Source of the DNA: Ideonella oryzae
GTDB taxonomy: Bacteria; Pseudomonadota; Gammaproteobacteria; Burkholderiales; Burkholderiaceae_C
NCBI RefSeq assembly: GCF_024055665.1
Contig: NZ_JAMXMC010000009.1
Coordinates: 186,001-250,000, forward strand
DNA length: 64,000 nt
Reading direction: 5' to 3'
The translations under genes and the position numbers were made by a program. The notes beneath the pieces were generated by a model that saw only the letters and a list, made by a program, of their open reading frames with translations, had not been told where the DNA came from and ran no database searches. This document shows positions 28,387 to 32,059 of this stretch, piece after piece. The stretch's first letter is position 1; every line of letters begins with the position of its first letter.

Positions 28387-29262
28387 ATGACAAGCGCCCC
28401 TTCGATCCTCCACCTGGTGGGTGCCGGCCGTGTGGGCCGCACCCTGGCGGCCCTGTGGCAGCGTGCCGGCGTCTTCACGCTGGGCGATGTGCTGACCCGC
28501 TCGCCCGAGAGCGCCCGGCAGGCTGTGGCCGCACTCGGCGCCGGTCGGCCGGTGACCCACCCCGGCGAATTGCGACCGGCCGACGTGTGGCTGATGGCCA
28601 CGCCCGACGGCGCCCTGGCCGAGGCCGCCCTGACCGTGGCCCGGGCCGGCCTGCCGCCCGCCCAGGCCTGGCACTGCAGCGGCTTTGCGCCGGCCGCCGT
28701 GCTGGCGCCGCTGCAGCAGGCCGGCTGGTTGGTGGCCAGCGCCCACCCGGCGCTGAGCTTTGCCGACCCGATGGCGGCGCAGGCGCAGTTCGCCGGCACC
28801 GCCTGCGCGCTGGAGGGCGACGACGACGCCGTGATCCGGGCCGAACAGGCCTTCGGCGCCATCGGCGGGCGCTGCTTTCGGCTGCAGGCGGCCGACAAGC
28901 CGCTGTATCACGGCGCCGCGGTGCTGGTCAGCAACTTCCCGCCCGTGCTGGCCGCCGCCGCGGCCGAGCTGTGGCAGGGTTGCGGCATGCCGCCGGAGCT
29001 GATCGGCCCGCTGTGGCAGGCCTTTGCCCGGAACGTGGCCGACAACCTGCTGCGCCTGGGGCCCGCCGCCGCACTGACCGGCCCGGCCGCCCGCGGCGAC
29101 ACCGCCGTGGTGCAGGCCGAGATCAGCGCCATGCAGGCCCGCGACCCGGCCCTGGCCCAGGCCTATGCGGCGCTGAGCACCCTGGCCGCGCGCCTGGCCC
29201 GCGAGGGCACGGCGCTGGCCCCGTCCGAGGAGACCGCGCCGCTCAGCCGCGCTCGAACTTGA
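28387..29262 (+). CDS. DUF2520 / Rossmann-fold oxidoreductase-like protein
   Basis: 291 residues. An N-terminal NAD(P)-binding fold with LHLVGAGRVGRTLAALW and ADVWLMATPDGALAEAA, followed by the conserved HCSGF, ASAHPALSFAD and a helical C-terminal domain (YHGAAVLVSNFPPVLAAAAAELW, LGPAAALTGPAARGD). The layout resembles ketopantoate reductase / pyrroline-carboxylate reductase relatives. No substrate is known for this family. Its last 20 bp overlap the convergent metW 3' end; it is divergent from DUF389. Confidence 0.85.
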   Translation: MTSAPSILHLVGAGRVGRTLAALWQRAGVFTLGDVLTRSPESARQAVAALGAGRPVTHPGELRPADVWLMATPDGALAEAALTVARAGLPPAQAWHCSGFAPAAVLAPLQQAGWLVASAHPALSFADPMAAQAQFAGTACALEGDDDAVIRAEQAFGAIGGRCFRLQAADKPLYHGAAVLVSNFPPVLAAAAAELWQGCGMPPELIGPLWQAFARNVADNLLRLGPAAALTGPAARGDTAVVQAEISAMQARDPALAQAYAALSTLAARLAREGTALAPSEETAPLSRART

Positions 29263-29830
29263 ACACCGCCACGTTGGCCAGCAGGTTGGGCAGCGTGCGC
29301 ACCATGTTGCCGTCCTGCAGACCGAAGCTGTCGAGGATCTGCAGCCCGTTCTTGCGCGCCAGCACCTCGAAGTCGGCGTAGGTGCCCACGCGGATGTTGG
29401 GCGTGTCGTACCACTCGTAGGGCAGGGCTTTGGTCACCGGCATGCGCCCGCGCAGCACCGAGACCCGGTTGGGCCAGTGCGCGAAGTTGGGAAAGCTGAC
29501 GATGCCGATGCGCCCCACCCGCGCGGTCTCGCGCAGCATCTTCTCGGTGTTGCGCAGGTGCTGCAGGGTCTCCAGCTGCAGCACCACGTCGAAGCTGTGG
29601 TCGTCGAAGAGCTTCAGCCCCTCTTCCAGGTTGAGCTGGATGACGTTGATGCCGCGCTGGGTGCTGGCCAGCACGTTGGCGTCGTCCAGCTCGATGCCAT
29701 AGCCAACGCAGCCGCGCTCGCGCATCAGGTAGGCCAGCAGTTCGCCGCTGCCGCAGCCCAGGTCCAGCACGCGGGCGCCACGCGGCACCAGGCGTGCAAT
29801 CACTTCCAGGTTCTTCAAGGGCGTGGTCAT
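29243..29830 (-). CDS. metW: Methionine biosynthesis protein MetW (class I methyltransferase fold)
   Basis: 195 residues. SAM-binding motif [16 protein letters not shown], then [14 protein letters not shown], and the MetW-specific [57 protein letters not shown]. MetW acts with MetX in homoserine acylation/methionine synthesis in many proteobacteria. Its ATG overlaps the metX stop, so it is expressed with metX under the upstream SAM riboswitch. Confidence 0.95.
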
Positions 29831-30978
29831 GCGGCGGCTCCCGTGCGCAACTCGGCGGCAATGCGCTCGAAGTAGGCCCGCATCACCGCCAGGTAGCGCG
29901 GGTCCTCCAGCAGGAAGGCGTCATGGCCGTGCGGCGCGTCGATCTCGGCGTAGCTCACGTCGGCCCGGTTGTCGACCAGGGCCTTGACGATCTCGCGCGA
30001 ACGGGCCGGCGAGAAGCGCCAGTCGGTGGTGAAGCTCACCAGCATGAACTTCGTGTCCTTGGCGATGGCGAAGGCCCGCGCCAGGTCACCGCCATGGGCG
30101 CGGGCCGGATCGAAGTAGTCCAACGCGCGGGTGATCAGCAGGTAGGTGTTGGCGTCGAAGTACTCGCTGAACTTGTCGCCCTGGTGGCGCAAGTAGCTCT
30201 CGATCTGGAACTCGATGTCCTGGGTGCTGAAGTGCAGCTCGGCGTCGCGCAGCTCGCGGCCGAACTTGGCCTCCATGGAATCGTCCGACAGGTAGGTGAT
30301 GTGGCCGATCATGCGGGCCACGCGCAGGCCACGCTTGGGCACCACGCCATGGGCGTAGAAGTGGCCGCCGTGGAAGTCCGGGTCGGTGACGATGGCCCGG
30401 CGCGCCACCTCATTGAAGGCGATGTTCTGCGCCGACAGGTTGGGCGCCGTGGCCACGGCCACGCAGTGGCGCAGGCGCTCGGGGTAGCGCAGGGCCCAGG
30501 CCTGGGCCTGCATGCCGCCCAGGCTGCCGCCCAGCACGGCCGCCAGCTGGCGGATGCCCAGGGCCTCGATCAGCCGGGCCTGGGCGTCCACCCAGTCCTC
30601 CACCGTGCACACCGGGAAGTCCGCGCCCCAGGGGCGCCCGGTGGCGGGGTTGGGGTCCATCGGCCCGGTCGAGCCGAAACAGGACCCCGGGTTGTTCACG
30701 CCGACGACGAAGAAGCGGTCGGTGTCCACCGGCTTGCCCGGGCCCACCATGTTGTCCCACCAGCCCAGGCTCTTGGGATCGTCGGCGTGCAGGCCGGCCA
30801 CGTGGTGCGAGGCATTGAGGGCGTGGCACACCAGCACGGCATTGCTGCGCTCGGCATTGAGCGTGCCGTAGGTCTCGTACACCAGCTCATAGGCCGGTAG
30901 CTGTGCGCCGCTCTGCAGCGGCAGGGGCTGGTCGAAGCGCATGCGCTGCGGTGTGACCACCCCGACGGAGCTCGTCAT
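29827..30978 (-). CDS. metX: Homoserine O-acyltransferase (acetyl- or succinyltransferase)
   Basis: 383 residues, alpha/beta-hydrolase fold. Motifs: [57 protein letters not shown], the nucleophile in [13 protein letters not shown], Asp in [12 protein letters not shown], and His in [11 protein letters not shown]. It acylates homoserine in methionine synthesis. The acyl donor (acetyl- or succinyl-CoA) cannot be read safely from sequence. The start [21 protein letters not shown] at 30978 follows GGAGAG. It is controlled by the SAM-II element and attenuator about 20-135 bp upstream. Confidence 0.95.
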
Positions 30979-30998
30979 GTCCGACTCTCCATTCATCC

Positions 30999-31045
30999 AA
31001 AACAAAACACCCGGACGTCGCGCCAGACAAAGCGGACACCGGGTG
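30999..31045 (-). terminator. Intrinsic terminator (attenuator) between SAM-II aptamer and metX
   Basis: On the minus strand CACCCGG (31045-31039) pairs with CCGGGTG (31014-31008), and TTTTGTTTTGG follows (31007-30997). This is a classical hairpin plus T-run, upstream of the metX ATG at 30978 and downstream of the aptamer. That is the arrangement expected for SAM-dependent premature termination. I cannot fold the antiterminator by eye. Confidence 0.7.
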
Positions 31046-31060
31046 CACAGGTCTCGGGGT

Positions 31061-31113
31061 CCCTCTTTAGCGGCATTTATTGGGCGCCCGCAATCCGGAA
31101 CAAATCGGCGCCA
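31061..31113 (-). ncRNA. SAM-II (SAM-alpha) riboswitch aptamer
   Basis: Minus-strand features match the SAM-II aptamer: a 6-bp P1 (GGCGCC at 31112-31107 with GGCGCC at 31088-31083), a loop beginning GATTTG and containing CCGG then TTGC, then after P1 an A-rich linker (AATAAATGCC) and the conserved 3' GCTAAAGAGGG (31071-31061). Order and spacing fit the known compact pseudoknot aptamer almost base for base. SAM binding should lower expression of metX-metW through the terminator that follows. SAM-II is best known from alphaproteobacteria. Confidence 0.88.
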
Positions 31114-31126
31114 TGGAGCAGAAAGT

Positions 31127-32059
31127 TTAGCAGGCGGCCGACCAGGCCGCCCGCAGGTCGCTCGCCAGTTCGTCCAGCCAGGCGTAGCGGCGCTGGTACT
31201 GGGCCCGCTTGTGCGACGGGATGTCCTGCACCGGCTTGCGCCGTGGCACCGCGGGCAGGGTCCAAAAGCCGTCCGAGCCGCACACGCCCCCCGCCGAGGA
31301 CCAGAGCCCGTCGTAATCCAGCAGGACCCGCGCGGCGCGCTCGCTGCCATGCAGCGCATGGCGGGCCTGCCCCACCGCGCGCAGCTGCGCCAGGCCCCAA
31401 CAGGCGGCCAGCTGCTGCAGGGCCCATAACAGGAGATTCTGCGGACGCAGGCCGTGGCTCAGCCGCGTGAGATGGCGCGCCACCTCCACCGGCAACTGCC
31501 CATGCATCGCCCCGATCAGCAGCCCTGCTCCGGCCGGCGTGGCCTCGAAAGAAAACGTGAGGGTGTAGAGCACCGTGCCGAAGGGATCCACCAGCAAGAG
31601 GCTGAGGTCGCCCTCGCGCTCGAACCGGGTCAGCGTGTGCAGCCGCAAGGACAGCGCGCCCTGTCCCTTGGGCAGGCTCAGCGGGGACAGGGGCTGGCTG
31701 AGCAGGTCCAGACAGACCCGGCGCCACACCCGAACGCCCAGACGCTCCCGGGCCAGGCGGTGGTGGGTCAGCAGATGCGCCAGGCGCTGCTCCACCTCCC
31801 ATCCGGCGCAGGGATAGCCGAGATAGGGCTTGCGGAACAGGCGGGGCTGGGCCGCGGCCAACGCCCCCCAGTCCTGGGCCATCTCCGCAGGCCCCTGCCT
31901 CAGACGCCGATGGATGCTCCGGTGGCGCCAGAAGCACCAGGCCAGACGCCAACGCCTGCGCAGCGCTGTCCATCCGGCCTGGGGGTAGATCGCCCGGCAC
32001 AGCGCCCAGGCATCGGGCCAGGGTGCGGGCAACTCGGCAGGCGGCAGTTCCGAAGGCAT
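31127..32059 (-). CDS. VirK/YbjX family protein (DUF535)
   Basis: 310 residues. Family landmarks: a hydrophobic/aromatic N-terminal helix region, [34 protein letters not shown], then [50 protein letters not shown] and the late [34 protein letters not shown]. This is the DUF535 family, linked in enterobacteria to envelope stress and antimicrobial-peptide resistance; the biochemistry is unknown. The ATG at 32059 is chosen; upstream frame runs into the divergent TetR gene. It precedes the metX riboswitch on the same strand, 14 bp away. Confidence 0.85.

Follow-up and report, generated by a model that had tools for sequence, protein, structure and literature searches.

The leader of metX and metW in the window, a 64,000-nucleotide stretch of Ideonella oryzae DNA, carries a SAM-II aptamer, and we judge at a probability of about 0.87 that it is a riboswitch repressing metX-metW by premature transcription termination when S-adenosylmethionine (SAM) is high. 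SAM is suggested as the ligand by the conserved core of the aptamer together with the genes behind it. The initial annotation, made from the sequence, had proposed a SAM-II aptamer plus an intrinsic attenuator at this place; the Rfam model RF00521, a held-out covariance model, the terminator, the antiterminator pairing and the link to metX across genomes all support it. For this lineage, the analysis settles how metX-metW is likely controlled, and it offers a specific antiterminator for transcriptional SAM-II switches.

A complete SAM-II aptamer upstream of metX-metW

The complete aptamer occupies positions 31060-31113 of the minus strand, the strand of all window features described here. The P1 helix is built from two GGCGCC arms, the 5' arm at 31107-31112, placed by the sequence and the RF00521 match, and the 3' arm at 31083-31088, placed by the sequence and pair counts. 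L1 starts with GATTTG (31101-31106). The 5' strand of the P2 pseudoknot, CCGGATTGC (31090-31098; P2a CC, P2b TTGC), was assigned from pair counts on alignment A1 and includes CCGG (31098-31095) and TTGC (31093-31090); an AATAAAT linker (31081-31075) leads towards the P2 3' strand, GCTAAAGAGGG (31061-31071), which shares bases with the 5' strand of the antiterminator proposed below. Every element named in the initial annotation was found at its place when the sequence was read directly. The SAM-pocket motifs GATTTG, TTGC and GCTAAA are present in the window and do not vary in any of the 45 rows of alignment A1. By comparison with PDB 2QWY, we take the GATTTG uridines to be part of the SAM-binding triplex, and the SAM-binding residues of that structure are presumably all present in the window aptamer. 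The 24-nt core has a single occurrence, and none of 100 dinucleotide shuffles matched it at three or fewer mismatches.

The anticipated covariance-model hit proved significant, though it lies under the curated cut-off. Searched against 401 bases (30900-31300), RF00521 (SAM_alpha) matched 31121-31044 over model positions 1-79 of 79 with 33.1 bits (E 7.3e-6), below the Rfam gathering score of 36, and a whole-window Rfam scan at gathering thresholds returned no entries. RF00521 had a single match across the organism's own genome (E 2.0e-5). Only 69 of the 169 family genomes with an RF00521 match exceed the gathering score, which makes the cut-off a strict one in this lineage, not a diagnostic one. 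A held-out model, built from 33 aptamers of which none came from the window's genus so as to avoid circularity, scored the window element at 72.3 bits with an E of 2.6e-19, a value that is only rough because the calibration was short; nothing else in the window fell below E 1. Two related SAM-binding pseudoknots, SAM-V and SAM-II long loops (RF01726), have been described (PMC6061858, PMC2864571). SAM-V gave no match at E up to 10 within 30900-31300, and RF01726 was rejected as the identity of the window element, with matches in 0 of 16 genomes (the window's own and 15 others).

Pairing in the aligned aptamers agrees with the P1 and P2 helices. P1 pairs in 767 of 780 cells (130 aptamers), and its outermost pair is changed on both sides in 19 of the 45 rows of alignment A1. 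In the same alignment P2a pairs in 74.8% of cells, with two-sided changes at two of its three pairs; P2b pairs in 100% of cells and, being invariant, is uninformative on covariation. Taken together for the 45 aligned aptamers, P1 and P2 pair in 93.7% of cells versus 88.2% after shuffling, and 31 cells are changed on both sides versus 10.7 in shuffles; two of the five covariation measures on alignment A1, the number of pairs with two-sided changes and the number of extra pair types, were not above shuffles. One locus, L116, falls outside the motif expression and was omitted from the P1 pair count and from the terminator, antiterminator, prefix-fold, hexamer and downstream-gene tests; it does match model R3.

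The downstream gene is metX (29827-30978), of the homoserine O-succinyltransferase type by NF047916 (668 bits, cut-off 560). Its ATG lies at 30978, and a GGAGAG located by eye 6 nt upstream is the likely ribosome-binding site. metW follows (29243-29830; TIGR02081, 235.1 bits, cut-off 189.5), its ATG overlapping the end of metX by 4 bases. The upstream gene on the same strand encodes a DUF535 protein and ends at 31127.

Distribution of the element among related genomes

Among 100 genus and family leaders, all prior RF00521 matches, the next gene is metX in 98, metZ in one and neither in one. The set is made up of 11 matches from the genus, the 30 family matches with the highest scores and, of the rest listed, 59 of 60 alternate rows; 100 of the 101 genus and family loci fetched were used, and for L049, which matched twice, the first match was taken. 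At the order level the partner is more varied (30 loci: metX 11, metZ 12, neither 7), as it is in 118 loci from titled genomes among the matches listed (metX 53, metZ 24, neither 38, too short 3). In L107, two SAM-II matches stand in tandem on the minus strand (1011-1066 and 850-909; 56.3 and 23.7 bits), and the next gene is neither metX nor metZ.

RF00521 finds 11 of 16 genus, 169 of 299 family and 137 of 300 order genomes. A tuned model, R1, which was trained partly on these genomes, finds 271 of 299 in the family and 55 of 299 across the phylum. The family counts, 169 with RF00521 versus 271 with a lineage-tuned and partly self-trained model, suggest that RF00521 misses many real members. 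That the resemblance arose by chance and has no function is hardly credible: the score below the gathering threshold and the shortness of the element in a G+C-rich region would allow it, against which stand the 72.3 bits from the held-out model, the family-wide recovery by the tuned model and the position before metX in nearly all sampled leaders. Conservation already contradicts this reading.

Within the genus, 14 of 16 genomes keep the aptamer ahead of metX, as the initial annotation had expected of sister species. An apparent loss of the riboswitch in five of the 16 members, read from the Rfam search, was mostly wrong, and three of the five carry the aptamer before metX. Of the remaining two, one (L256, genome G015) has metX without the aptamer, the best R3 scores upstream being 9.3 and 7.5 bits, and the other, 80% complete, is without a convincing metX. 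In L255 (genome G014), the metX match contains one in-frame TGA. The Ideonella oryzae genome itself also holds two SAH riboswitches above the Rfam cut-off (L250 and L251; 61.6 and 53.6 bits).

A conserved terminator and a probable promoter flank the aptamer

An intrinsic terminator hairpin of -26.2 kcal/mol lies at 31007-31046, with CACCCGG (31045-31039) facing CCGGGTG (31014-31008), and is also present in the minimum-free-energy fold of the whole leader. It is followed by the U-tract TTTGTTTT (30999-31006), which becomes TTTTGTTTT (31007-30999) when 31007 is counted. A hairpin of at most -12 kcal/mol followed by a T-run was found in 84 of the 100 leaders, whereas dinucleotide shuffles of these leaders gave one in 109 of 500 cases and control stretches from within the downstream coding region in 2 of 99. 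In this G+C-rich window the terminator pattern alone, found once versus 1.3 times expected, is not beyond chance, and the support therefore comes from the comparison across genomes. The other 16 leaders have no strong terminator. In L034 (1208-1262) only 4 nt separate the aptamer core from the metX ATG, and there is no terminator; this element is probably a translational SAM-II.

The initial annotation had read the layout as transcription termination and as an exception to a translational mode taken to be usual. The termination layout is supported. The supposed exception is not, as Barrick and Breaker (2007) describe the majority of SAM-II riboswitches as transcriptional and include beta-proteobacterial transcriptional members; they also call the mechanism of transcriptional SAM-II experimentally unestablished (PMC2258182). 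Corbino et al. (2005), who reported the metA motif, had noted terminators after many SAM-II elements (PMC1273637). The window element resembles SAM-II (RF00521) in its P1 helix, its H-type P2 pseudoknot and its GATTTG/TTGC/GCTAAA core, as well as in a methionine biosynthesis target and in the terminators that many members have behind them (PMC1273637, PMC2258182). It differs from the RF00521 members in scoring below the cut-off, in its metX-metW target and in the beta-proteobacterial GCGC of its P1. Terminators after beta-proteobacterial SAM-II elements have been on record since 2007, and the window element is typical of a class already known; what is new here, the assignment of an antiterminator and the merging of labels, is a modest addition. 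Among described systems, the SAM-II upstream of metZ in Sinorhizobium meliloti shares the aptamer class and a predicted SAM-dependent terminator, and is described as giving rise to a riboswitch sRNA; it differs in its alpha-proteobacterial host and its metZ target (Scheuer et al., 2022; PMC9373788).

On the upstream side, TAAACT (31124-31129) is a probable -10 box whose first three bases double as the stop codon, TAA, of the DUF535 ORF upstream. The best hexamer shortly before P1 matches TATAAT at 4 or more of 6 positions in 100 of 100 family leaders; with the upstream stretch shuffled by single bases, 7 of 100 do so. A sigma-70 consensus scan of the window returned no promoter, and no -35 box was seen. 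Corbino et al. (2005) put the transcription start a few nucleotides upstream of P1 (PMC1273637); the position of the hexamer agrees with this and points to a start site just before P1 in the window as well.

Proposed pairing of the P2 3' strand with the terminator arm

We propose that transcription begins just before P1 and that the fate of the transcript would be decided kinetically, while it is being made. In the SAM-bound state, GCTAAAGAGGG (31071-31061) would be held by P1 and the P2 pseudoknot; with this strand sequestered, the 5' arm of the terminator would be free, the hairpin at 31046-31007 would form and polymerase would stop in the U-tract. Without SAM, the P2 3' strand and the bases that follow it (31066-31055) would pair with 31041-31029. 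This antiterminator, whose 3' strand (31029-31041) lies inside the terminator's 5' arm, would delay the terminator until polymerase has passed. The duplex between the proposed strands (5' strand 31055-31066) has a predicted energy of -13.3 kcal/mol.

The pairing fits the leaders individually. In the 84 leaders with a strong terminator (the 16 without one were left out), the stretch starting with the P2 3' strand pairs with the leader's own terminator 5' arm at a mean of -11.5 kcal/mol. When arms were permuted between leaders the mean was -10.2 kcal/mol (sd 0.23), and 0 of 20,000 permutations were as good as the own arms; a shuffled terminator arm gave -7.8 kcal/mol. Own arms rank well without being the best partners (mean rank 0.35, with 0 for the best), and the independent changes are fewer than 84, because the permutations ignore relatedness. 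Co-changes can be seen in individual leaders, for example AAAGAGGG opposite CTTT-type arms and AAAGACGG opposite TCGTTTT. Shuffles for the antiterminator duplexes, the prefix folds and the -10 hexamers were of single bases, not dinucleotides.

Folding of transcript prefixes gave a similar result for the leaders as a group. In prefixes ending at the terminator apex, 6.6 antiterminator pairs are expected versus 3.4 with a shuffled arm (84 leaders), and at least four such pairs form in 67 of 84 leaders versus 28 of 84 for the shuffled-arm mean. The window itself, at 1.5 expected pairs in the apex-length prefix, is one of 13 of the 84 leaders below 2. Its prefixes fold P1 first, and in transcripts ending at 31034-31025 the P1 5' arm pairs with the terminator arm (GGTGTCC). 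The antiterminator then reaches a probability of 0.73 in transcripts ending at 31020 and 0.71 at 31015, falling to 0.33 at 31012 and 0 at 31010, by which point the terminator has taken over. The permutations over 84 leaders point to a mutually exclusive antiterminator overlapping the aptamer, and the window's prefix folds are partly contrary to it.

Constrained folds of the window gave -43.8 kcal/mol with the terminator and -31.9 with the antiterminator, a gap of about 12 kcal/mol. Equilibrium folding was rejected as a model of the switch, since in the window the terminator always wins; with the end state so much in the terminator's favour, the switch, if it works, must be kinetic. The same strong preference for the terminator would be expected if the SAM-II element acted mainly on translation or RNA stability and the hairpin were a constitutive attenuator outside SAM control. 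Precedents for that arrangement are the probably translational layout of L034, with its ATG 4 nt past the aptamer and no terminator, and S. meliloti metA, for which a terminator without predicted SAM dependence and effects on translation and stability are described (Scheuer et al., 2022; PMC9373788). We consider it improbable for the window. The metX ATG is 82 nt past the aptamer and has its own GGAGAG, so that P2 cannot directly hide the ribosome-binding site, and a SAM-independent terminator would not explain why the P2 3' strand pairs with the terminator arm better than permuted arms do.

A SAM-OFF attenuator could also work with a different main antiterminator, formed by the P1 arms, or by the GC-rich regions 3 and 4 on which Leyn et al. 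(2014; PMC4239095) speculated, instead of the P2 3' strand. The P1 3' arm pairs with the terminator 5' arm at a mean of -12.3 kcal/mol, stronger in absolute terms than the P2 stretch, and the P1 5' arm engages GGTGTCC in the window prefixes described above. The own-leader fit of the P1 3' arm is weak, however (p 0.016 versus 0 of 20,000 for the P2 3' strand), and since the P1 arms are nearly invariant, any arm with a complementary motif would score well against them. We therefore demoted the P1 3' arm, which had caught the eye first, from main antiterminator to an alternative that we regard as unlikely, although, given its stronger absolute pairing, it may share in the antiterminator role. Handover of the P2 3' strand from the pseudoknot to the antiterminator is our preferred reading.

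Relation to the metXZ element and RF02424

Leyn et al. (2014) described a beta-proteobacterial metXZ element with a pseudoknot, a terminator and a poly-U stretch, present in 10 of 11 Comamonadaceae, usually before metXW and before metZ in three Methylophilales, Nitrosospira multiformis and Thiobacillus denitrificans (PMC4239095). It resembles the window element in standing upstream of metXW, in a pseudoknot followed by a terminator and poly-U, and in its single copy, and differs in having been published as novel with its signal unassigned (PMC4239095). The target genes given for metXZ by taxon, mostly metX, with metZ in Nitrosospira and Methylophilales, are reproduced by the SAM-II matches: among the matches listed, those of Burkholderia guangdongensis, Cupriavidus respiraculi and Variovorax guangxiensis precede metX, and those of Nitrosospira sp. 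Nsp14 and Novimethylophilus kurashikiensis (Methylophilaceae) precede metZ. Judged from the published description, the genes and the taxa, the metXZ element is very probably SAM-II. We found no open-licence full-text paper that equates the two. Leyn et al. saw SAM_alpha only in Rhizobiales and Rhodobacterales and called metXZ novel (PMC4239095), as would be expected were it a class of its own, a distinct pseudoknotted RNA of another ligand. This we think very improbable, as its position, pseudoknot topology, terminator, single copy and target genes all agree with the SAM-II matches, including the metZ targets in Nitrosospira and Methylophilaceae, and RF00521 matches the element directly.

RF02424 (Bp2_Cand287) derives from a Burkholderia sRNA study that placed it upstream of methionine genes (PMC3521395). 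Eight loci were scanned with this model. It lies on the strand opposite the SAM-II leader in two of them (L134:3876-3989 and L147:5790-5910), with scores of 39.3 and 27.3 against a cut-off of 70; L172, L141, L163 and L132 gave no match. RF02424 differs from the SAM-II leader in being filed as an sRNA and on the other strand, and it looks like the same element filed on the wrong strand, that is, probably the antisense of the SAM-II leader. If so, an element published as "novel" and an sRNA family in Rfam would be one riboswitch.

Variant elements and a Pseudomonas-type leader

Several matches depart from the usual SAM-II form. L3 is lengthened by inserts of roughly 20-40 nt, which look hairpin-like by eye, in L172:3339-3427, L141:772-857, L163:7797-7889, L279:1504-1590 and L253:2711-2785; the hosts are Burkholderia, Caballeronia, Cupriavidus and one genus sister, and RF00521 gives L172 only 16 bits. 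At the other extreme, the SAM-II-like element of L271 (1524-1567; 31.2 bits) is 44 nt long and nearly lacks L3; it precedes an ABC ATPase gene whose best match, MetN, is below cut-off. Two SAM-II-like elements on the minus strand (L272:1494-1548 and L273:1477-1531) have GAGTTA instead of GATTTG and stand before metK, identified after the L272 element by TIGR01034 at 610 bits. Going by its sequence, this metK-linked element could be a variant with altered binding.

Model R1 also returned weaker relatives in gamma-proteobacteria, seven of which share a conserved leader with a SAM-II core and an L3 hairpin; five of the seven, compared with Rfam, gave no SAM-II match at E up to 1. One of these five adjoins the Pseudomonas sRNA P11. 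A model of these Pseudomonas-type leaders matched 25 of 25 genomes of one Pseudomonas-like genus, and 31 of 33 loci (L263-L269 and L284-L308) fit one motif with 19 distinct cores. To judge from these sequences, the Pseudomonas-type leader is an unannotated, SAM-II-like leader, and it is the most novel lead of the analysis.

It is tempting to place the metX leader in a larger, under-annotated superfamily of beta- and gamma-proteobacterial SAM-II elements that would take in metXZ, the RF02424 antisense, the long-L3 forms, the metK- and metN-linked variants and the Pseudomonas-type leader, and in whose transcriptional members the P2 3' strand would pass between pseudoknot and antiterminator in a purely kinetic handover. 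As a joint proposal this is tentative, and we give it somewhat less than an even chance.

The Pseudomonas-type leader lies just before an ORF of about 105 amino acids. Its product shows weak hints of Methyltransf_11 (E 0.05 and 0.1), and one of two such proteins matches MetW at E 0.0096, far below cut-off; the small protein is possibly MetW-like.
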